Below are positions 36,633-47,855 of a stretch of 64,000 nt of DNA, piece by piece. Under the pieces are notes generated by a model. The model ran no database searches, was not told where the DNA came from, and was given only the letters and a program-made list of their open reading frames with translations. The position numbers and the translations under genes are program-made. Numbering within the stretch: the first letter of the stretch is position 1; each line of letters opens with the position of its first letter. The DNA comes from Halopenitus malekzadehii (lineage in GTDB: Archaea; Halobacteriota; Halobacteria; Halobacteriales; Haloferacaceae): the NCBI RefSeq assembly GCF_900108505.1, contig NZ_FNWU01000004.1, positions 62,001 through 126,000 on the forward strand, read 5' to 3'.

Positions 36633-37034
36633 TCAGATTTCGCTCGCCCACACCCGGTAGTCGTCGTCGAGCTCGAAGACGGTTCGGAAGGTCCGCTCGA
36701 TGAAGTCGGCGATCCGGTTGGCGTCCGAACGAGCCGTGATCACGGCGTTCGTCCCCTCGGCGTCCTCGGGGCTGTGCAGCTCGTCGATCCGGAACTCGGG
36801 ATAGTCGTCAAGCAGGGTTTTCAGTCGATCGAGCTCGTCGTCGGTGACGTCGAGAACGACCTCGGTGCCCGCCACCTGGATCCACGGCGGGAGGTCGTCC
36901 TCGGTCGTCGTGGTGTCGCTGTCGGCGTCGACGTCGAGGGTCGCCACCGGGCTCGACCGGGCACGGTGGGCACTCACCGCGTCGGCGAACAGCGCGTGCC
37001 GCTCCGTCTCCTCGGCGGCGTCGAATCGGGTCAT
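36633..37034 (-). CDS. Haloarchaeal protein of unknown function
   Basis: A 133-residue soluble acidic protein beginning MTRFDAAEETERHALFADAV. An Asp/Thr-rich stretch near residue 40 separates a helical N-terminus from a predicted alpha-beta domain with LPPWIQVAGTEVVLDVTDDE and the C-terminal RTVFELDDDYRVWASEI. No motif is recognised. It lies 40 nt upstream of the Usp gene on the same strand, so the two may be one transcript. Confidence 0.6.
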   Translation of the reverse strand: MTRFDAAEETERHALFADAVSAHRARSSPVATLDVDADSDTTTTEDDLPPWIQVAGTEVVLDVTDDELDRLKTLLDDYPEFRIDELHSPEDAEGTNAVITARSDANRIADFIERTFRTVFELDDDYRVWASEI

Positions 37035-37623
37035 ACGGCACGGTTTCGCGGCGGGCCTAATAAGGCGGGCGGTGGGACGGAGTTCTCGGATAGTGGAACG
37101 AGTTTTGGACGGTGGGACGGAACATACGATCTCGATGTGGGAGCATTCGATCGCGATGCAGGATCGATCGACAACGCGCGTCGCAGCTGAATGGTGGCAT
37201 AGCGCAACTATAAATATATAAATTAAATATAATATATTGTATATTTATAATTCTGCAGATTAAAAACGCAGGAACTGGTACCATCGACCCCCTTCGGACC
37301 GGTTTGAGATCGACGGATGAACTATTTGATCACCGAGTAGCGACGATAGAGCGACCGTACTACGGAGAAACGGCTGAGAAAGACCACTCAAACACTCCTT
37401 TCGGTGACGGCTGTTCACGGCTGATCGCCGAGTGACGGCTGCTCGACGCCGACCTGCGATCACCTTATCCACCGGAATCGTGGCGGTCTCCCGGACGATA
37501 GATAGTATGTATCTAAGTAAAATATACGAGGTATTTGTATATTAGTATTATAACTAATCGTTCTGGCCCGCGATCGTTTTTGGTAATGACAAAAACTAAC
37601 CGTCTCGAACGAGATGTGGTAGT
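37035..37623. other. AT-rich noncoding region before iclR
   Basis: 589 bases without a convincing gene. Two very AT-rich blocks stand out, about 37203-37265 and 37498-37560, in an otherwise GC-rich sequence. An inverted repeat TAGATA-n5-TATCTA lies at 37499-37515. The middle part (about 37266-37490) has ordinary composition and no coding signal; it looks like an intergenic or decayed sequence and could be a dispersed repeat. The 16-bp putative IclR site is at 37578-37593. Confidence 0.5.
37578..37593 (+). promoter_or_regulatory. Putative IclR operator, copy 1
   Basis: TTTTGGTAATGACAAA, a pseudo-palindrome with half sites TTTG/CAAA, 30 nt before the iclR start codon. An identical 16-mer lies at 38574-38589 in the opposite orientation, between iclR and the operon it precedes. 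The position suggests autoregulation. Confidence 0.65.
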
Positions 37624-38421
37624 ATGGCTCGTGAGACCGAAAAACGAACCATCCAATCGGTCGATCGGGGGTGTGAGATCCTGGAGACCCTTCGCCGGAA
37701 CGGACCGTCGACGATCTCGGAACTGGCGGCCGACTCGGAGCTGTCGGCCGGCAGCATCCACACGTACCTTGCGACGCTGCGGGATCACGGTTTCGTCGAC
37801 AAGGACGGGACACAGTATCGGCTGGGATCGATGTTCATTCCCTTCGGCGTCCGTGTTCGAAACCGATCGGACCTCTATGCCGCCTCGAAGACCATCCTTC
37901 AGGAACTCGCCCAGGAGACCGGCGGCTGTGTCCACCTGACACGTGAGTACGACGATCGGCTTCTGATACTCGAGGAGGTCTACGGAGCGAACGCGATCGG
38001 CCAGGAGTTCCACGTCGAAAAGCGTGGCCGGCTGCAGCGACATCTGCACTGTACGGCGAACGGAAAGTCGATCCTGGCGTATCTGTCCGACGATCGGGTA
38101 CGGGAGCTGCTTGCGGACCACGGACTCCCGTCCCGAACCTCACACACGATTACGGACCGCGAGACGCTGCTCACGGAACTCGAAACGATCCGGGAACACG
38201 GATACGCGCGGAACGATCAGGAACATATGCCGGGCATACGGGCGGTCGGCGCACCGATCCGCCGTGATGAGGATGGCGCGGTCATTGGATCGGTTAGCGT
38301 CTCCGGATCGGCCGCGAGCTGGACCGGCACCCGGTTCGAGGAGACGATTCCGGCTGCCGTCACGGAGGCGGCCACCGACATCGAAATACGGATTCACTCG
38401 CGAGAACGAGAGGTTTGGTGA
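37624..38421 (+). CDS. IclR-family transcriptional regulator
   Basis: A 265-residue regulator. The N-terminal winged helix is clear (TIQSVDRGCEILETLRRNGP, then ISELAADSELSAGSIHTYLATL). The C-terminal IclR ligand domain runs from about residue 80, with HLHCTANGKSILAYLSDD and GIRAVGAPIRRDEDGAVIGSVSVSG. IclR proteins commonly sense aromatic or carboxylic acid metabolites and control adjacent catabolic operons. It is 362 nt upstream of the carboxylase operon on the same strand and is bracketed by two copies of a 16-bp pseudo-palindrome, likely its binding site. Confidence 0.92.
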   Translation: MARETEKRTIQSVDRGCEILETLRRNGPSTISELAADSELSAGSIHTYLATLRDHGFVDKDGTQYRLGSMFIPFGVRVRNRSDLYAASKTILQELAQETGGCVHLTREYDDRLLILEEVYGANAIGQEFHVEKRGRLQRHLHCTANGKSILAYLSDDRVRELLADHGLPSRTSHTITDRETLLTELETIREHGYARNDQEHMPGIRAVGAPIRRDEDGAVIGSVSVSGSAASWTGTRFEETIPAAVTEAATDIEIRIHSREREVW

Positions 38422-38485
38422 GACGGGAGTTGGGGGGGCTTGGTGAAGCAAGAGCCAGGGAGATCCCTCGTCGATCCTCCGGAAT

Positions 38486-38509
38486 AATTACACGTATATA
38501 GGTGTAATT
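38486..38509. promoter_or_regulatory. 24-bp inverted repeat with TATA core
   Basis: Perfect 8-bp arms AATTACAC and GTGTAATT around the spacer GTATATAG. Typical operator geometry for a dimeric regulator, and the core could itself be a TATA box. No gene starts within 50 nt, so its target is unclear. Confidence 0.5.
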
Positions 38510-38573
38510 CACCGGGGTGTGATGGCGAGATCTGTCTGGCTCGGCGCGCGAATACCCGCTGAGTTTGACTGTA

Positions 38574-38589
38574 TTTGTCATTACCAAAA
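38574..38589 (-). promoter_or_regulatory. Putative IclR operator, copy 2
   Basis: Identical on the minus strand to the 16-mer at 37578-37593. It lies about 160 nt upstream of the operon TATA element, farther than a simple repressor site, so activation or looping with copy 1 is possible. Confidence 0.65.
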
Positions 38590-38783
38590 GATCTCATCGT
38601 GAGGCGATTCGGTCCTCGGGCGGTTGGCACAGCGATCCGTACCGGGCCGACGGAGTCGATCGACGACTCGTTGGAGGGCTGACGACGGAATGGGTGCGGT
38701 TTTCTGTCACGATTATAGTCCCCACGGAATATGTTCACAACCACCGGAATATTTATAACGATTGTAACCAAGAGTTCGGTCGC

Positions 38784-40799
38784 ATGGCAGAGGATGACTA
38801 CTACGTGAGCATCGACACCGGTGGGACCTTCACCGACGGTTACGTGTCGTATCCTGATGGATCGACGACGGTCAAGGTCCCGACGACGGACCACGACCTC
38901 ACGGTGTGTTTCCGTAACTGTATCGACAAGGCGGCGGATAAGCTCGACAAACCGACCGAGGAGTTCCTCGTCGACACGGACGTTATCCGATTCTCGACGA
39001 CGATCGGGACGAACACGATCATCGAGCGGTCGGGACCGAAGATCGGGCTCATCGCGACGGCCGGCGAGGAGGACGGCCTGTTCAGCGCCGAGGACGATGA
39101 CGGTCTGATCTCGGGGGAAGACCTCGTGATCGGCGTCGAGGAGCGGACCGACGCCGACGGCGAGGTGGTCGATCCCGTGGACGCCGACGAGGTACAGGCG
39201 GCCGCAAAGACCCTGATGAACAGGGGCGCGAAGCTCATCCTGATCAGCTTCGCCAACTCGTTCCACGACGAGACGAACGAGGAGCGGGCACGCACGGTCA
39301 TCGAGACCGAGTATCCGCCCCACTACCTCGGCCCCAACCAGGTGCTGACCGCCAACGAGGTCAGCAGCCGACCGGGGTATCGAACGCGCACGTACACGGC
39401 TCTGGTCAACGCGTACGTCCATCGGCCGATGGCCCGCTCGCTTTACAAGGCGGAGGACGACGCCCGAAACAGCGGCTACTCGAACCCGCTGCTCATCGGC
39501 CAGTCGACCGGCGGCGTCGCCGGCGTCTCCAAGACCGTCGCGTTGCACACCTACAACTCCGGCCCGGTCGCGGGAGTGCTCAGCGCCGACGCGTTCCGGG
39601 AGCTGTACGACCTGGAGTCGGTGATGAGCGCGGATATGGGCGGCACGAGCATCGACCTCGGCACGATCGTCGACGGCGAGCTCGAACGAAACCTCCTGCC
39701 GGAGGTCGCCGATATGCCGGTCCACGTCCCGATGATCGACGTCCACACGGCCGGCGCCGGCGGCGGCAGCGTCGCCTCGGTGAGCGACGGGGAGCTCTCG
39801 GTGGGCCCCGAGAGCGCCGGTGCGGAACCGGGACCGGCGTGTTACGACCTCGGCGGGTTCCAGCCGACGACGACGGACGCGGACGTCGCGCTTGGGTACA
39901 TCGACCCGGACTACTTCCTCGGCGGGGACCAGCAGCTCAGCGCGGACCGGGCCGAGGAGGCGATCGAGCGGCAGGTCGCCGACCCGCTCGACGCCTCGGT
40001 CGCGGAGGCCGCGCTCCAGGTCAGACGGCGCGTCGACCGAAACATCGCCGACAGCATCGAGTCGCAGCTGGCCGAGCGTGGCGAGGACCCGGCCGACGTC
40101 ACCCTGATCGCCTACGGGGGCGCGGGGCCGACCCACTGCTGTACCTTCGCCGCAGCGGCCGGCGTCAACCGCATCATCACCGCCCCTGCCGCGGCCGAGT
40201 TCAGCGCCTTCGGCGGCGCGACTCTGGACGTCGAACACCGCTACTCGGCGGCGCTCGGCGAGACCATCGCCGGAGACGTTCCCTCGGTCGACGGGAACGC
40301 GTTCCGCCGAACCGTCGAGCGGCTGGAGGCGGAGGCGATCCAGGACATGGCCGGTGAGGGATTCGACGCGGACGACGTCGCGCTCCAGACGTCGATCCTG
40401 GCGCGTCTCGGCGACGAGATCCACGAGGTCGACGTGCCGTCCCGAATCGGCGGTCCGGACGACCTCGACCCCGTGATCGACGCGTTCGACGCCGATCCGG
40501 AGGACGAGATCGACCTTGACACGCTGGTGTTGACCGCGGTCGGGCCCGTCGCCACCGAGGATCTCGCTCGACACGAACTCGGGGACGCGGATCCCAGCGA
40601 CGCCCGGAAGGGATCCCGCGAGGCGTACTGGCCCGTCGACGGCTGGGTCGAGACCGACGTCTACCAGCGTGAGGAGCTCGAGCCCGGCAACGTCGTCGAG
40701 GGACGGGCGCTGATCGAGGCGACCGACACGACCTACGTCGTTCCCGACGACTGGACCTACACGATCGACGAATACGCCAACGGGATCATCGAACGATGA
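38784..40799 (+). CDS. HyuA-type (hydantoinase/oxoprolinase A) carboxylase subunit alpha
   Basis: A 671-residue subunit of the hydantoinase/acetone-acetophenone carboxylase family. The N-terminal actin-like ATPase starts YYVSIDTGGTFTDGYV; ADMGGTSIDLG and HTAGAGGGSVASV form the rest of the nucleotide site. GAEPGPACYDLGG and AYGGAGPTHCCTFAAAAGV are family signatures. It heads an operon with overlapping stop-start junctions (ATGA at 40796-40799). The start at 38784 coincides with the expected transcript start. A second, 715-residue HyuA-type protein follows in the same operon, so the two are probably the alpha and alpha' subunits of one complex. Substrate unknown. Confidence 0.88.
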   Translation: MAEDDYYVSIDTGGTFTDGYVSYPDGSTTVKVPTTDHDLTVCFRNCIDKAADKLDKPTEEFLVDTDVIRFSTTIGTNTIIERSGPKIGLIATAGEEDGLFSAEDDDGLISGEDLVIGVEERTDADGEVVDPVDADEVQAAAKTLMNRGAKLILISFANSFHDETNEERARTVIETEYPPHYLGPNQVLTANEVSSRPGYRTRTYTALVNAYVHRPMARSLYKAEDDARNSGYSNPLLIGQSTGGVAGVSKTVALHTYNSGPVAGVLSADAFRELYDLESVMSADMGGTSIDLGTIVDGELERNLLPEVADMPVHVPMIDVHTAGAGGGSVASVSDGELSVGPESAGAEPGPACYDLGGFQPTTTDADVALGYIDPDYFLGGDQQLSADRAEEAIERQVADPLDASVAEAALQVRRRVDRNIADSIESQLAERGEDPADVTLIAYGGAGPTHCCTFAAAAGVNRIITAPAAAEFSAFGGATLDVEHRYSAALGETIAGDVPSVDGNAFRRTVERLEAEAIQDMAGEGFDADDVALQTSILARLGDEIHEVDVPSRIGGPDDLDPVIDAFDADPEDEIDLDTLVLTAVGPVATEDLARHELGDADPSDARKGSREAYWPVDGWVETDVYQREELEPGNVVEGRALIEATDTTYVVPDDWTYTIDEYANGIIER

Positions 40800-41755
40800 G
40801 CTTCGGATCGCCGCCGGCCGTCGACTACCTCGAAGGACTCTCGACGGAGCAGCCGTTCGTGCCCCTCGTCGACACGCTGGCGGCGGAGATCAACCAGGTG
40901 CCCCACGAGATCTACCACCGGAACGCCACGCAGTCCGCGAACGGCCGGCAGCGCGCACAGCGGCTCTTCGAGCACGACGCAGTGGCGACCACCCTCGACC
41001 GGACGCTGCTGTGTGACGTCCTCGACGCGGCCGTCGAGTGGAGCGATGACGCCGATCGCTTCGTCGTCGACTCAGTCTCCGGCGGCGGCGAGCTGAGCGC
41101 GCCGACCGACGTGGCCGCCGCGGGACGCGTCCCGACGGTCCTCGACGTGGCCGAACGACTCACCACGACCCTCGAGGACGTCGCGGTCGTCGGCGGACTC
41201 CCCGGTCCGGTCGCGACCTTCAACGAGCTGCTGCCGGACGCACGCCTCGACGCGAACCAGGAGACGACGGCGCTGATACGGGAGGTCTTCGGCGACGTGG
41301 CACGGGCCTACGGCCGGGCGGGCGTCGACGCGTTCCTCGTGACCGAGTTCGCCACGGGAGCCCAATCGCCGTCCGCCGTCATCGAGACGAACGTCGCGGC
41401 GTTGGAGATGCTCGGGAACATCGCCGAGTTCTTCGGCGTTCCCGTGGCGTTCGTGCCGGAGGGGTACGACGTGGACGTCGCGGCCGAGATCGCCGAGCGG
41501 ACGTCGATCGACGGCGTGCTCCTCGACAGCAGCGATCCCGCGACGCTCGCCGACCGATTCCCCGACCTCCGCGTCGGCGGCGGGATCACTCCCGAGCTGC
41601 TCGCGGAGTCGACGGACGAGATCGAGTCCACGATCGAGGATCGCTTCACGGACGCGCCGGACGCGGTGTTTCCCGCCAGTGGAACCGAGATCCCGCCGGA
41701 AACGCACCCGAGCAAGCTCACGGCCGTCTCCCGCGTCGTGGAGGCGACGACGTGA
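40796..41755 (+). CDS. ~34 kDa operon protein, possibly URO-D/methyltransferase-like barrel or epsilon subunit
   Basis: A 319-residue soluble protein starting MSFGSPPAVDYLEGLSTEQP. Repeated beta-alpha patterns (DVAVVGGLPGPVATFNELLP, GVPVAFVPEGYDVDVAAEIA, IDGVLLDSSDPATLADRF, LRVGGGITPELLAEST) suggest a TIM barrel, loosely like uroporphyrinogen decarboxylase or corrinoid methyltransferase proteins; the likeness is not strong. The size and position match the fifth (34 kDa) subunit of acetophenone carboxylase. It overlaps the preceding HyuA gene by four bases, so it is made with the carboxylase. It may bind substrate or stabilise the complex. Function is inference. Confidence 0.55.
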   Translation: MSFGSPPAVDYLEGLSTEQPFVPLVDTLAAEINQVPHEIYHRNATQSANGRQRAQRLFEHDAVATTLDRTLLCDVLDAAVEWSDDADRFVVDSVSGGGELSAPTDVAAAGRVPTVLDVAERLTTTLEDVAVVGGLPGPVATFNELLPDARLDANQETTALIREVFGDVARAYGRAGVDAFLVTEFATGAQSPSAVIETNVAALEMLGNIAEFFGVPVAFVPEGYDVDVAAEIAERTSIDGVLLDSSDPATLADRFPDLRVGGGITPELLAESTDEIESTIEDRFTDAPDAVFPASGTEIPPETHPSKLTAVSRVVEATT

Positions 41756-41770
41756 GCGGACCGAGAAACC

Positions 41771-41926
41771 ATGACAGGACATACCGACACATCGAACTCG
41801 ACCGACCGCATCACAGCGACAGACAGCATCGACCGGCCAACCGAGCAGACCGACGGAACCGATCCGACTGACGGAATCGCAGCGACCGACGCGTTCGAAC
41901 ACGACCGACGGAGTGAGACCAGATGA
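41771..41926 (+). CDS. Small Thr/Asp-rich 51-residue operon frame
   Basis: A frame from ATG 41771 fills the space between the 34 kDa gene (15 nt gap) and the gamma-subunit gene. Its TGA overlaps the latter's ATG (ATGA, 41923-41926). The product would be low complexity, rich in Thr, Asp and Ser (MTGHTDTSNSTDRITATDSI at the start), with no fold expected. It may be a real small protein or only a translational bridge that keeps ribosomes moving to the gamma gene. Confidence 0.4.
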   Translation: MTGHTDTSNSTDRITATDSIDRPTEQTDGTDPTDGIAATDAFEHDRRSETR

Positions 41927-42261
41927 GCACGACGAAACGGATCACGGAATACCTGGAGATCGACCTCGAGGACCGGACGTGGACCTGCACCGAGTGTGCC
42001 GAGACCATCGCGCCGGCCGACGAGAACTACAAACGCGGCTGTGTGGTGCGTGAACGCCATCCGCACGAGGTCCATCGACCCCTGATCGAGGACGCCGAGT
42101 ACTCGTTCGCGCCGGACCCCGACTGGGTGCGGATCGTGGAGTTCTACTGCCCGGGCTGCGGGACGATGATCGAGAACGAGTACCTCCCGCCGGGTCATCC
42201 GATCACCCACGACACCGAGTTGGACGTGGACGCGCTCGTCGAAAACGGAGGGTCGCGATGA
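41923..42261 (+). CDS. Acetone/acetophenone carboxylase gamma-type zinc subunit
   Basis: A 112-residue protein. It carries Cys residues in WTCTECAETIAP and FYCPGCGTMIENEYLPPGHP, a likely zinc site, and the block NYKRGCVVRERHPHEVHRPL. This arrangement and the ending HPITHDTELDVDAL match the small gamma subunits of acetone and acetophenone carboxylases. Gene order places it directly before the second HyuA-type gene, which it overlaps by four bases (42258-42261). It is specific to carboxylases and absent from plain hydantoinases, so its presence argues for carboxylation chemistry. Confidence 0.85.
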   Translation: MSTTKRITEYLEIDLEDRTWTCTECAETIAPADENYKRGCVVRERHPHEVHRPLIEDAEYSFAPDPDWVRIVEFYCPGCGTMIENEYLPPGHPITHDTELDVDALVENGGSR

Positions 42262-44405
42262 CGACGCGCATCAACATCGACGCGGGCGGGACGTTCACCG
42301 ACTGCTTCACCCTTCACGACGGCGAGGCGGTGTCGGCGAAGACGCCGACGACCGAACACGACATGTCGGAGTGTTTCTTCAAGGGGATCCGCAAGTGTGC
42401 GTCCCAGCTCGATGTCGACCTCGACGAACTCATCGCCGACGTGGACTCGATCCGGTACTCCACGACGACCGCGATGAACCGACTGATCGAGCGAAAGGGG
42501 CCCAAGCTCGGGCTGCTCACCACGGCCGGCGTGCAGGACTACCCGCAGATCGGTCGCGGCCCGCGGTGGGCGGACGGTCTCACCGACAACGAGCAGCGGA
42601 ACATCTCCGACGCGGAGAAGCCGGAGTACCTCGTCCCCGACTCCCGAACCAATGGGATCCGTGAGCGCGTCGACAGCGAGGGAACCGTCCTCCGGCCACT
42701 CGACGAGGAGCACGCCCGCGAGCAGATCCGCGACCTCGTCGACCGGGGCGCGCGGGCGATCGTCGTCAACCTGCTGTGGTCCTACGAGTACCCCGAACAC
42801 GAACAGCGGATCCGGGAGCTCGTCCGCGAGGAGTACCCGCCCTCGTACCTCGGGAGCATCCCCGTGTTCCTCTCCTCGGAGGTAATGCCGACCAAACAGG
42901 AGTACGAGCGGACCAACACGACGCTGCTGGACGCCTACCTCTCGGAGCTGATGCAGGAACACATCGCCGACATCAAGGAGCGGCTGGAGGCGTACGGCTA
43001 CGAGGGGGACGTCCAGATGCTGCACAACACCGGCGGGATGGCCGAATCCTACAAGACGACCGCCGTCGAGACGTTCAACGGCGGGCCCGTCGCCGGGCTG
43101 AAGGGAGGCGAGTACCTCTGTGACCTGCTCGGCTACGACAAGGCGGTCGTGACGGACATGGGCGGCACGAGCTTCGACATCGGCATCCTCACCCAGGGCG
43201 GCGTCCAGTCCTACGAGTTCGAGCCCATCATCGACCGCTGGCGCGTCTCGGGGACGATGATCGAGTCGAAGTCGATCGGCGCGGGCGGCGGGTCGATCGC
43301 CTCCGTCAACGACGAGCTCGGCGGCCGGCTGGAGGTCGGCCCCGAGAGCGCCGGCGCGGACCCCGGTCCGGCCTGTTACAACCGCGGCGGCACGAAGCCG
43401 ACCGTCACGGACGCGGACGTGGTGCTCGGGTTCATCAACCCGGAGAAGTTCTACGCCGGCAACCAGCGGCTGGCGGTGGACCGCGCCGAGGAGGCGATCG
43501 AGACCCACGTCGCCGACCCCGCGGGAATGTCGGTCACCGAGGCCGCGCGCAACATCCGCCGGATCGCCGACGGCAATATGGGTAACACGGTCCGCAAGGA
43601 GACGATGCTTCGGGGTCACGATCCCCGGGAGTTCATCCTCTACAGTTTCGGCGGGGCCGGACCCCTCCACGCCGCCTCCTACTCGTCGTACCTCGACATC
43701 GACACCGTCGTGACGACGCCCTACTCGCCGGTCTTTTGCGCGATGGGGTCGGCGACGATGGACACGCTGCACCTCTACGAGCAGTCCAACTCGATGTACC
43801 TGCGCGAGTCGGGCGAGGAGGCCGTCTACTCGGCCGACTACGAGTCGTTCAACGAGACCGTCGCGGATCTCCGTGCGAAGGGGCGTCGCGACATCGAGAG
43901 CGAGGGCTACGACCCCGACGACATCACCTACGAACTCGAGCTGGATATGCGGTTCGGCGGACAGATCCACGTCGCCCGCATCAGGTCGCCGCGGCTCGAG
44001 ATCCACGACGAGTCCGACGTCGAGGCGATCTGTGACCACTTCATCGACCAGTACACGGACCGCTTCTCCTCGTACTCGGTGACGCCGAGCCACGGCATCA
44101 CCGTCGAGAACTTCGCGCTGAAGTCCCGCGTCGAGAGCTCGGACATCGACCTGCCGACCACGACGGTCGGCGAGCGCGACCCGGCGGCGGCGAAGGCGGG
44201 CTCCCGGGACGTCCACTGGGAGTCGAGCGACGGGACCGTCTCGACCCCGGTCTTTGAATACGACGACGTCCGACCGGGAATGGCGATCCGGGGGCCGGCA
44301 GTCGTCGACGCGGACTACACGACGACCGCGGTCCCCGACGGCTGGACGTACCGGATGGACGAGTACCGCAACGGAATCCTCGAAACCGACGGAGCAACCC
44401 AATGA
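42258..44405 (+). CDS. HyuA-type carboxylase subunit (acetone carboxylase beta-like, alpha')
   Basis: A 715-residue ATP-binding subunit starting MTTRINIDAGGTFTDCFTLH. The nucleotide motifs VVTDMGGTSFDIG and SIGAGGGSIASVND and the family signatures AGADPGPACYNRGG and YSFGGAGPLHAASYSSYL are all present. Its C-terminal domain ends GWTYRMDEYRNGILE, a block nearly the same as the end of the first HyuA protein (WTYTIDEYANGIIE), so the two are paralogues. In acetone carboxylase this subunit activates the ketone or bicarbonate with ATP. It overlaps the HyuB-type gene by four bases. Confidence 0.9.
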   Translation: MTTRINIDAGGTFTDCFTLHDGEAVSAKTPTTEHDMSECFFKGIRKCASQLDVDLDELIADVDSIRYSTTTAMNRLIERKGPKLGLLTTAGVQDYPQIGRGPRWADGLTDNEQRNISDAEKPEYLVPDSRTNGIRERVDSEGTVLRPLDEEHAREQIRDLVDRGARAIVVNLLWSYEYPEHEQRIRELVREEYPPSYLGSIPVFLSSEVMPTKQEYERTNTTLLDAYLSELMQEHIADIKERLEAYGYEGDVQMLHNTGGMAESYKTTAVETFNGGPVAGLKGGEYLCDLLGYDKAVVTDMGGTSFDIGILTQGGVQSYEFEPIIDRWRVSGTMIESKSIGAGGGSIASVNDELGGRLEVGPESAGADPGPACYNRGGTKPTVTDADVVLGFINPEKFYAGNQRLAVDRAEEAIETHVADPAGMSVTEAARNIRRIADGNMGNTVRKETMLRGHDPREFILYSFGGAGPLHAASYSSYLDIDTVVTTPYSPVFCAMGSATMDTLHLYEQSNSMYLRESGEEAVYSADYESFNETVADLRAKGRRDIESEGYDPDDITYELELDMRFGGQIHVARIRSPRLEIHDESDVEAICDHFIDQYTDRFSSYSVTPSHGITVENFALKSRVESSDIDLPTTTVGERDPAAAKAGSRDVHWESSDGTVSTPVFEYDDVRPGMAIRGPAVVDADYTTTAVPDGWTYRMDEYRNGILETDGATQ

Positions 44406-46462
44406 CTGTCAACCGCGACCAACTGATCGACTGGCTCGACCTGGAAGAACCGACCGACGAGGAACTGGCCTGTATGGACGACCTCGGCCACGGCGACTAC
44501 GAGATCTACTCGGAACGCCTCCGGCTGATCCTCGACGAGGGCGTCGACGTCTTCGTCCGCTCGGGCGTCTCACAGTTCATTGCCGCCCGCGACCTGGCGG
44601 TGGCGATCTACACGCCACAGGGGGACCTCATCGACTCGGCGGCGGGAGCGTACCTGCACGTCGTCACGGGCATCCCGCCGCTGAAGTACGTCATCAACAA
44701 CTTCGCCGACGACGAGACCGTCGGCGTCGAACCGGGCGACGTCTTCTACGCCAACGACGCCCTCTACGGCGGCATCCACAACCCGGACCAGATCGCCTTT
44801 ATGCCGATCTTCCACGAGGGGGAGATCATGGCGTGGGTCTCCGCCGCCGTTCACACGACCGAGACCGGCGCGATCGAGCCCGGCGGGATGCCCATCTCGG
44901 CGCGGACCCGCCACGACGAGGGAATGAAGCTCTCGCCGATCAAGATCGGCGAGGACTACCAGCTCAAGACCGATATGCTCGAGATGCAGAAGAACTTCAT
45001 CTCGCGAGCCCCCCGGATGCACGAGATCGATCTCCGGGCGCGGCTGACGACCTGTGACCGGGTCAGACGCCGGGTGAAGGACCTCATCATCGAGAAGCAG
45101 GGCCCCGACTTCTTCAAGGGACTCATCCGCCGGAACATCGAGGAATCCCGGACGGGCGCGAAGGAACGGGTCGACTCCTGGAACGACGGGACCTTCCGGA
45201 CCGTCCACTTCGCTGACTCCGTCGGGTACGAGGACGGCCTCTGGCGATTGAACGCGACGATGGAGAAGGAGGGACCGGAGATCTCCATCGACTACACCGG
45301 GACCTCCCCGGAGAACGACGGATCGTTCAACTCCCAGCCGGTCGCCTCGATCGCCCACACGGCGAACTACCTGTTCAGCGTTCCCTTCCACGACCTGCCG
45401 AAGAGCAACGGGACCTACGACCTGATCGACTTCGAGATCCCGAAGGGATCGATCCTGTACCCGGACGCCGAGGCGTCGACCGTCCAGGCCGTGATGGTCA
45501 ATCAGGTGGTGATGGACTCCACGACGACGCTGTTCTCGCGGTCGATGTACGACGACGAGACCGAGAACGAACACGTCACGGCCCCGATGGCCAACACCGG
45601 CGCCGGATACGCCTTCGGGGCGGTGAGCCAGCACGGGGAGCCGGTCGCCGACCTGATGTCGCACGCCCTGAACACCGACGGCACGGGGGGACAGGCTCGC
45701 CGGGACGGCGAGGACGAGGCGATCTTCCCGTGGTGTCCGTTCGGGCACGCCTCGAATATGGAGTTCGTCGAGAACGAGTACCCGTTCACCCACCAGTACT
45801 TCCGACACGGAACCGACTCGTGTGGCCACGGGAAACACCGCGGCGGGATCGGGATGCAGATGGCGTACATGCAACACCACGTGCCCGCCGTCGAGTGGCT
45901 CTCGATCTGTCACAACTCGAAGCTCGTCACCGGACAGGGGCTGTTCGGCGGATATCCGCCCCGAACCATCCCCGGTCTCACGGTCACCGATTCGGATCTG
46001 AAGGAACGGATGGCGAACGGGGAGTACGTCCCGGACGACATGATCGAGCTCCTCCAGGAGCAGCCGCTCGACGCCGACTACAACGTCACGAGCCACGTCC
46101 GGGAGTCACAGCCCTACGAGAACGGCGACCTCTTCATCGGCCACTCCGGCGGCGGCTGCGGCTACGGCGACGCGCTCGAGCGCGACCCCGAGGCCGTGAT
46201 GGAGGACATCGAAGCCGATCGTGTCTCCCACTGGGCCGCGGAGAACATCTACGAGATCGAATACGACGAGGAGTCGCTGACCGTCGATGAGGAGGCGACC
46301 GAAAAGCGCCGCGAGCGCTACCGGGAGCAGCGCCTCGAGGAGGCGGTCCCGTTCGAGGAGTTCCAGGACGATTGGGAGCAAAAGAAACCGCCGGAGGAGA
46401 TCCTCGAGCACTACGGCAGCTGGCCCGAGGCGGAGAAGGAAGGTCCCGTGCTCCGGATGTAA
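44402..46462 (+). CDS. HyuB-type carboxylase subunit (acetone carboxylase alpha-like)
   Basis: A 686-residue hydantoinase B/oxoprolinase-type protein. Signatures include LILDEGVDVFVRSGVSQFIA, DVFYANDALYGGIHNPDQI and WVSAAVHTTETGAIEPGGMP, with the later RHGTDSCGHGKHRGGIGMQM. In acetone carboxylase this subunit holds the metal-dependent carboxylation site; His and Asp residues in NDALYGGIHNPDQ are candidate metal ligands. The C-terminal ~60 residues are strongly charged (EEATEKRRERYREQRLEEAV). It is the last gene of the overlapped block; the CoA ligase follows after 46 nt. Confidence 0.9.
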   Translation: MTVNRDQLIDWLDLEEPTDEELACMDDLGHGDYEIYSERLRLILDEGVDVFVRSGVSQFIAARDLAVAIYTPQGDLIDSAAGAYLHVVTGIPPLKYVINNFADDETVGVEPGDVFYANDALYGGIHNPDQIAFMPIFHEGEIMAWVSAAVHTTETGAIEPGGMPISARTRHDEGMKLSPIKIGEDYQLKTDMLEMQKNFISRAPRMHEIDLRARLTTCDRVRRRVKDLIIEKQGPDFFKGLIRRNIEESRTGAKERVDSWNDGTFRTVHFADSVGYEDGLWRLNATMEKEGPEISIDYTGTSPENDGSFNSQPVASIAHTANYLFSVPFHDLPKSNGTYDLIDFEIPKGSILYPDAEASTVQAVMVNQVVMDSTTTLFSRSMYDDETENEHVTAPMANTGAGYAFGAVSQHGEPVADLMSHALNTDGTGGQARRDGEDEAIFPWCPFGHASNMEFVENEYPFTHQYFRHGTDSCGHGKHRGGIGMQMAYMQHHVPAVEWLSICHNSKLVTGQGLFGGYPPRTIPGLTVTDSDLKERMANGEYVPDDMIELLQEQPLDADYNVTSHVRESQPYENGDLFIGHSGGGCGYGDALERDPEAVMEDIEADRVSHWAAENIYEIEYDEESLTVDEEATEKRRERYREQRLEEAVPFEEFQDDWEQKKPPEEILEHYGSWPEAEKEGPVLRM

Positions 46463-46508
46463 CGATCCGGAGCCGGTATCGACACACATATTTCACTATC
46501 AACACACC

Positions 46509-47855
46509 ATGACCGACGTATACGACCCGATCGAGACGGACCCGTGGGACGACGTCGTGGCACGCCACGAGTCGCTGCTGTCCGACCAGCTCGCGTACCT
46601 CGCCGAGCACTCCGACTACTACCGCCGGAAGTTCCGGGAGTGGGACGTCGACCCGGCGTCGATCACGACCCTCGAGGCGTTCCGGGAGATCCCCTTCACG
46701 ACGAAGGAGGACGAGCGACGCAACCAGGCCGACCCGGACCCCGACCAACCCCTCGGCGCGCACCAGGCGGTCCCGACCGCGGACCTGAACCGCACCATCT
46801 CGTCGTCGGGAACGACCGGCAAGCCGACCTACTTCGGGCTGACGGCGAGCGACCGCGAGCACTGGAACGCGGTCATCAAGCGGTGTTTTTACGCCACCGG
46901 GATCCGCCCCGAGGAGACGGTGATCTTCGGCGTCGGCCAGACGATGGTCCCCGGCGGCACGCCGTACTTCGAGGCGATGACCGAGCTGGGGGCCAACGTC
47001 GTCCCCGCCGGCGGCGGGAGCACCGAGCGGCTGCTGGACGCCCTGCAGGACCTACACGCGCCGGTATTGTTCACGACGACCTCGCACCTTCGGTACCTTA
47101 CGGAGCGGGCGCCGGAGATCATCGACCGGAGCGTCGACGAGCTGCCGGCCGTCAAGCTGATCGGCGGCGGCGGGCCGGGGATCTCCTCCCCCGAAATTCG
47201 GCGGACGCTCTACGAGGCGTGGGACGCCGATCTGGTCCGCGAGCTGATGGGTCTCGGCGACGTCGTCGGCTGTCTGTGGGCCGAGTGCGCCGCGGAGGCC
47301 GGGATGCACTACTGCGGACAGGGATACGCCCACGTCGAGCTGCTCGATCCCGACACGGAGACGGTGATCCCGTTCGAGGAGGGTGCGGAGGGCGAGCTCG
47401 TGTACACCCCGCTCGGCCGCGAGGCGACGCCGCTGCTCCGGTACCGGTCGGGCGATTACGTCCGGATCACGGGCACCGACTGCGAGTGCGGGCGCACGTC
47501 GCCGCGGATGCAGTGTATCGGCCGCGTGGACGAGATGCTCATTTATAAGGGAATGAACGTGTTCCCGTCCGCGATCCGCGACGTCGTCGCCGAGGTCGAG
47601 GGCACGCTCCCGTACGCCCGGGTCACGGTCCCCGACTCCGACACCGTCCGCTTCGAGTCGCCGATCCCGGTGACCGTCGTCCTGGATCCGGATTCGGACC
47701 GGGAGGCCGACGCCGTCGTCGAGGACGCGATCGACCGCGTCCGGTCACGACTCAAGGTCCGGATCGACCCGCAGCCGGTCTCACCCTCGGCGATCGAGCT
47801 CTCCGAGTACAAGACGAACCTCGTGGAGGTGGAGTCGGAAGCGACGGAGGCGTAG
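46509..47855 (+). CDS. Acyl-CoA ligase, phenylacetate-CoA ligase (PaaK)-like
   Basis: A 448-residue AMP-forming ligase of the short PaaK type. The nucleotide motif is ISSSGTTGKPTYFGL, with VKLIGGGGPGISSPEIRRTL, YRSGDYVRITG and the zinc-like CECGRTSPRMQCIGRVDEM in the core. The C-terminal domain has LIYKGMNVFPSAIRDVV with the adenylation loop. It would activate an aromatic or keto acid with CoA. In acetophenone degradation the carboxylase product benzoylacetate is activated by a CoA ligase encoded beside the carboxylase genes; this gene occupies that position. Substrate not proven. Confidence 0.87.
   Translation: MTDVYDPIETDPWDDVVARHESLLSDQLAYLAEHSDYYRRKFREWDVDPASITTLEAFREIPFTTKEDERRNQADPDPDQPLGAHQAVPTADLNRTISSSGTTGKPTYFGLTASDREHWNAVIKRCFYATGIRPEETVIFGVGQTMVPGGTPYFEAMTELGANVVPAGGGSTERLLDALQDLHAPVLFTTTSHLRYLTERAPEIIDRSVDELPAVKLIGGGGPGISSPEIRRTLYEAWDADLVRELMGLGDVVGCLWAECAAEAGMHYCGQGYAHVELLDPDTETVIPFEEGAEGELVYTPLGREATPLLRYRSGDYVRITGTDCECGRTSPRMQCIGRVDEMLIYKGMNVFPSAIRDVVAEVEGTLPYARVTVPDSDTVRFESPIPVTVVLDPDSDREADAVVEDAIDRVRSRLKVRIDPQPVSPSAIELSEYKTNLVEVESEATEA

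Follow-up and report, generated by a model that had tools for sequence, protein, structure and literature searches.

Probable control of a carboxylase-like operon by an adjacent IclR-family regulator

Do two identical short sequences that bracket a single regulator gene mark the operators of that regulator, and if so, what would it do from each of them? The question arises from a 64,000-nucleotide stretch of the Halopenitus malekzadehii genome (the window), in which TTTTGGTAATGACAAA occurs as exact copies at 37578-37593 on the plus strand and at 38574-38589 on the minus strand, both noncoding and on either side of an iclR gene, at the coordinates given in a preliminary description of this DNA. 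No further match was found in the 64-kb window with up to three mismatches allowed, and 0.01 such matches are expected in a shuffled sequence of this length. In the whole 3.14-Mb genome, only these two exact copies are present, both at the iclR locus, and the next-best matches are four sequences with three mismatches each, all overlapping open frames of at least 83 codons. The preliminary description had judged a chance origin very unlikely and had named genome-wide abundance as the finding that would speak against a regulatory role; the former agrees with the expected count and with the positions kept in relatives, and the latter was not observed.

The exact repeat is indeed 16 bp long, but the conserved unit is shorter. 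The first T of the 16-mer varies in relatives (T/G/A), and the unit is therefore the 15-mer TTTGGTAATGACAAA, a near-palindrome of the form TTTG-N7-CAAA. On the basis of the exact repeat, predicted operator 1 spans 37579-37593 on the plus strand, with its centre (37586) at -38 from the iclR ATG (37624). Predicted operator 2 spans 38574-38588 on the minus strand, and its centre (38581) lies 159 bp past the stop of iclR; the hyuA ATG (38784) follows 203 bp after this centre. Thus, a dyad stands before the regulator and before the adjacent operon, as is expected of an IclR-family operator. Within the window, TTTG-Nk-CAAA has two occurrences at k=7 and a single one over all other k from 0 to 20 taken together, and the inner heptamer GTAATGA combined with TTTG/CAAA is found at the iclR locus only in the genome.

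The gene between the sites (37624-38421, plus strand) encodes a 265-aa protein with a helix-turn-helix domain at residues 12-62 and an IclR_C domain at residues 80-253 (PDB relative 1mkm). Both Pfam models were exceeded clearly (PF09339, 46.5 bits at a cut-off of 22; PF01614, 117.5 bits at a cut-off of 24), and the product has the HTH_IclR plus IclR_C architecture and the length of approximately 250 aa of the family. A contig scan with the regulator as query matched only Halopenitus persicus and distant Chloroflexota. The same genome holds ten further IclR_C genes, and haloarchaeal genomes in which they were counted contain 4 to 21 IclR genes. One of the paralogues (L092) also carries TTTG-N7-CAAA on both flanks, at C27:854971-854985 and C27:856089-856103, with the inner bases GAGCACA and CATCTCC and the first site at -40.

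Two other features of the noncoding DNA were recorded at this locus. The sequence ACACGTATATAGGTGTAAT at 38490-38508 is part of a 24-bp imperfect palindrome (38486-38509) and is kept in two other genomes of the genus (G153 and G076), where 17 to 18 of its 19 bases match and it precedes operator 2 by 72 to 83 bp; it could be the site of a second regulator or a TATA-containing promoter. A very A/T-rich segment with overlapping inverted repeats (37206-37255), located between a divergent gene at 37034 and iclR, is not clearly conserved in these two genomes.

Conservation of the site pair in relatives

G153 and G076 encode regulators that are 82-83% identical to the IclR of the window. In both, TTTGGCAATGACAAA or TTTGGTAATGACAAA is located at exactly -38 from the iclR start, and a second site (TTTGGTAATACCAAA and TTTGGCAATGACAAA) follows 169-173 bp past iclR. 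Both sites are thus kept in the three members of the genus while the upstream regions have otherwise diverged, and operator 1 together with the following ACTAA.CGTC forms a clear island of conservation in the comparison with G153 and G076. The distance between the sites is nearly constant within the genus (995, 1006, and 1002 bp). Whereas the window has the second copy inverted, G153 and G076 have it in direct orientation. The orientation is thus without significance, which is what a near-palindrome leads one to expect.

The arrangement extends to a genome of the same family (G216) and to one of another family (G107), whose regulators are 49% and 47% identical to that of the window. Here, too, the same set of carboxylase genes comes after the regulator, and TTTG-N7-CAAA sites with a different inner sequence are present. 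The site between iclR and hyuA matches all eight outer bases in G153, G076, and G216 and seven of eight in G107. Regulator, site, and complete carboxylase operon co-occur in all four genomes. A recurrence of the motif near iclR/hyuA orthologues, proposed as a check in the preliminary description, was hence found both upstream of iclR and between the two genes.

A recurrent site pattern among haloarchaeal IclR promoters

For a broader view, the regulator was searched in 293 genomes of the order, and 127 distinct IclR genes were taken, of which 104 remained after similar promoters had been collapsed. Within 150 bp upstream of these genes, TTTG-Nk-CAAA was present in 42 cases for k=7 and in 0-2 for each other k between 0 and 20, and first-order Markov shuffles gave a mean of 0.15 and a maximum of 2. 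Up to 300 bp downstream, the corresponding numbers were 32 for the seven-base spacer vs 0-1 for other spacers. This spacer specificity agrees with the earlier suggestion that TTTG and CAAA are half-sites for a dimeric regulator. As a proximal site, the pattern is present in 40 of the 104 promoters; relative to the start codon, 38 of these 40 sites are centred at -38 to -41. Counted from the site centre, positions +11 to +14 are rich in A and T in nearly all of the 40 aligned promoters.

At least seven of the eight TTTG/CAAA bases are matched in 51 of the 104 promoters. The share depends on the identity to the regulator of the window and amounts to 7/7 at 50% or more, 12/15 at 45-50%, and 5/22 at 38-40%. 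A use of the motif by all haloarchaeal IclR proteins was rejected, as in an unselected sample of eight genomes only 3 of 41 IclR_C genes carried it exactly within the upstream stretch examined. The 53 promoters without TTTG/CAAA showed other dyads, among them TTCC/GGAA, GTTCG/CGAAC, and TTGCA/TGCAA. At -42 to -37, these other dyads are approximately twice as frequent as elsewhere (16 vs mostly 3 to 9 per six-base bin), although one bin, at -102, reaches 14.

The inner heptamers were compared between the upstream and the downstream site of one and the same regulator. In 23 cases, 4.48 of 7 bases agree on average, compared with 3.05 of 7 for permuted partners, and none of 2000 permutations reached the observed value. 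Judging from this agreement, TTTG/CAAA looks like the signature of a subfamily, and the inner heptamer looks like the address of the individual regulator. The palindromy of the heptamers was not above that of column shuffles (0.80 vs 0.81 pairs), and the inner bases consequently do not form a strict dyad. On the protein side, 18 of 19 regulators of the TTTG class have Gly at recognition-helix residue 43 and 14 of 18 others have Ser (culled at 50% identity), a post hoc correlation that ignores kinship and is equalled by variable columns elsewhere in the protein. As it is clean over the N-terminal 110 residues and less so over the full protein, we regard it as a lead only.

Promoter geometry and proposed regulation

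A conserved A/T box is located at about -27 from the ATG in the 40 promoters, 8 bp past the operator end. With the centre locked at -38 to -41, the CAAA half falls on the expected position of the BRE, just before this box. From archaeal promoter spacing, we infer that the A/T box serves a leaderless transcript as its TATA and that the CAAA half-site lies on the BRE. In the window, the A/T-rich columns of the 40 promoters correspond to AACTAAC at 37594-37600 (plus strand), immediately behind operator 1 and the candidate TATA of a leaderless iclR transcript, although as a TATA element this candidate (ACTAAC) is weak. The probable core promoter of the carboxylase operon lies at 38745-38758 (plus strand) and comprises a BRE-like CGGAAT and TTTATA at 38752, approximately 28 bp before the ATG; the TTTATA is kept at the same distance before hyuA in G153 and G076.

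Measured from the hyuA start, operator 2 and its counterparts are located at -203 (window), -113, -130, -65 (and -249), and -81 (the 7/8 match), and the site is clear of the hyuA core promoter in five genomes. Its distance to hyuA varies by 90 bp within the genus, and 203 bp is a long distance for activation in archaea. Steric hindrance, one of two known archaeal modes of repression, is how repressors bound at BRE/TATA act (PMC6085418), and XacR, GacR, RhcR, and MscR, the catabolic IclR regulators described from haloarchaea, are activators (PMC11519228).

We therefore read both 15-bp sites as operators of the IclR encoded between them, with a dimer repressing iclR at operator 1 and activating the carboxylase operon from operator 2, and put the probability of this reading, which draws on sequence comparison, at about 85%. 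The dimer would read the outer TTTG/CAAA half-sites, common to a haloarchaeal IclR subfamily, and the inner seven bases would tell the sites of one regulator from those of another. On operator 1, it would cover the BRE beside the TATA of the leaderless iclR transcript, keep TFB/TBP off, and thereby repress iclR. From operator 2, upstream and clear of the core promoter, the effector-bound IclR would most likely activate the carboxylase-like operon; the effector might be a ketone, its carboxylation product, or the CoA ester. As for the signs of regulation, iclR is probably repressed and the operon probably activated from a distance. Activation is favored for the operon because site 2 is never found on the core promoter and because the described haloarchaeal catabolic IclR regulators activate. 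The autoregulation and operon control predicted in the preliminary description appear largely supported by this comparative evidence.

Alternative explanations

The main rival to activation of the operon is repression of both promoters from the same operators. Here, an IclR tetramer would bridge the sites 995 bp apart in a DNA loop, and the effector would release both. In bacteria, IclR proteins can assemble as tetramers, and many of them repress (PMC8222616); within the genus, the two sites keep a nearly constant distance from each other, whereas site 2 lies at varying distances from hyuA. However, the spacing is constant because iclR itself is constant in length, site 2 lies outside the hyuA core promoter, and the four haloarchaeal catabolic IclR regulators described so far are all activators (PMC11519228), so that we consider double repression unlikely, though to be taken seriously. 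The sites could also belong to another regulator controlling both genes, either one of the ten IclR paralogues or a TrmB/GlpR-type factor, given that at least one of the ten further IclR_C genes has its own TTTG-N7-CAAA pair (C27:854971 and C27:856089). But the inner heptamers track the neighboring regulator, and the sites of this paralogue differ inside (GAGCACA, CATCTCC) while GTAATGA is confined to the present locus, which makes such a foreign owner improbable.

Identical short repeats in inverted orientation around one gene are also what the ends of a small mobile cassette carrying iclR would look like. Such terminal inverted repeats are very improbable here, since the second copy in G153 and G076 is direct and different in sequence, the linkage of iclR and hyuA is kept in relatives, and the pattern recurs before dozens of unlinked iclR genes, at a fixed position in the promoter; moreover, only iclR and no transposase lies between the copies. 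A chance repeat without function is the least credible explanation and can practically be dismissed in view of the 0.01 matches expected in the window, the conservation of the same positions in relatives, and the spacer specificity. Repression of iclR at operator 1 combined with activation of the operon from operator 2 thus stays the preferred reading.

The carboxylase-like operon

The proposed target starts with a hyuA-type subunit resembling Apc alpha' at the ApcA position (38784-40799; Pfam Hydantoinase_A; 5l9w chains B, b), which stays below the equivalog cut-offs of NF042975/NF042960. It is followed on the same plus strand by a URO-D-fold protein (40796-41755; PF01208; NF042977), a small zinc-ribbon subunit of the Apc/acetone carboxylase type resembling ApcB (41923-42261; PF08882; 5l9w_C, E 2e-42), an Apc alpha-like hyuA-type subunit (ApcC; 42258-44405; 5l9w_B, E 5e-206), and an Apc beta-like hyuB-type subunit (ApcD; 44402-46462; 5l9w_A, E 2e-178). 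The last gene encodes a phenylacetate-CoA-ligase-like acyl-CoA ligase (46500-47855, plus strand; 2y27, E 3e-47; NF041878 below cut-off), the counterpart of the benzoylacetate-CoA ligase of the apc operon. The sole PDB match of the URO-D-fold protein is 9fou, Apc epsilon (E 7e-6), which makes it a distant relative of a subunit described as rarely conserved, here in second place of the operon.

Alpha, alpha', beta, gamma, and epsilon types and a CoA ligase are hence found together, and the operon is a complete acetophenone-carboxylase-like set. None of its subunits reaches the curated Apc equivalog cut-offs (NCBIfam), and such scores do not fix the substrate. In Aromatoleum aromaticum, the gene order is apcABCD(E) plus ligase (PMC5214803; PDB 5l9w, 9fou). 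All five subunit types and the adjacent CoA ligase are shared with that system, as is the order alpha'-gamma-alpha-beta, whereas the epsilon-like gene is second here and last there. The five-subunit operon together with iclR was seen in distant haloarchaea (L075 in G216, L081 in G107), yet in no more than 4 of the 148 genomes of the family, a distribution that hints at horizontal transfer. The ligase gene of G216 lies on the opposite strand.

Comparison with known IclR systems

The survey by Suvorova and Gelfand (2021; PMC8222616), which comprised 320 bacterial but no archaeal genomes, described the group 1 motif GKTYCRYW3-4RYGRAMC with the subgroups TGT-11-ACA, GTT-11-AAC, and WTT-11-AAW. Shared with bacterial group 1 are the odd-length palindrome, the A/T-rich centre, and the R/Y-biased shoulders, as well as the placement near the start of the regulator and between the regulator and one adjacent operon, with the centre within -20 to -80. 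The half-site, in contrast, is TTTG/CAAA here and TTYC/GRAA in bacterial group 1. The latter is not found in the 40 aligned sites, in which base 4 is G in 40/40 by selection, and the site core fits RYW3RY only as a trend of the columns. Different from group 1 are also the archaeal core promoter and the position locked at -38 to -41, and some other haloarchaeal IclR genes have TTCC/GGAA or GTTCG/CGAAC at this same promoter position. The group 2 motif TGRAACA-N1-2-TGTTYCA is absent from TTTGGTAATGACAAA by inspection.

Among the haloarchaeal regulators, XacR of Haloferax volcanii (Johnsen et al. 2015) is likewise an IclR protein that activates a catabolic operon, and its own promoter contains a negative element of semi-palindromic form. 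As summarized in PMC6085418, that element covers the WW motif near the transcription start and not the BRE as proposed here. An identification of xacR through an IlvD neighbor in one genus was dropped, with only one IlvD per genome. MscR, GacR, and RhcR (PMC11519228) belong to the IclR family of haloarchaea and lie next to catabolic genes, like iclR here, but serve sugar or sugar-alcohol pathways, unlike the carboxylase-like operon; no binding motif is defined for these three in that work. No description of TTTG-N7-CAAA for haloarchaeal IclR proteins was found in literature outside subscription papers, to which that of XacR belongs. The pair itself is ordinary in kind, and it is apparently the family-wide version of the operator that is useful and new relative to the literature found.

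Taken further, the data may point to a haloarchaeal IclR operator code that differs from the bacterial one, with a clade-specific outer half-site (TTTG/CAAA here; in other clades, TTCC/GGAA and GTTCG/CGAAC variants), a regulator-specific heptamer, a position locked on the BRE of a leaderless promoter, and regulons that can be read from sequence; we give this generalization an even chance.

Significance

Haloarchaeal IclR genes are numerous and few are characterized. An operator that can be read from sequence at a constant position ahead of the regulator gene would allow operators and targets to be assigned by a sequence scan, and if the operator code holds true, the gene of each regulator displays its operator, and hundreds of uncharacterized IclR regulons would become readable. 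The locus itself lends itself to testing directly whether BRE occlusion serves repression in archaea. Furthermore, it ties a complete acetophenone-carboxylase-like operon of a haloarchaeon to a specific regulator, and the operon may provide an inducible promoter as well as a route to its substrate through inducer screening.
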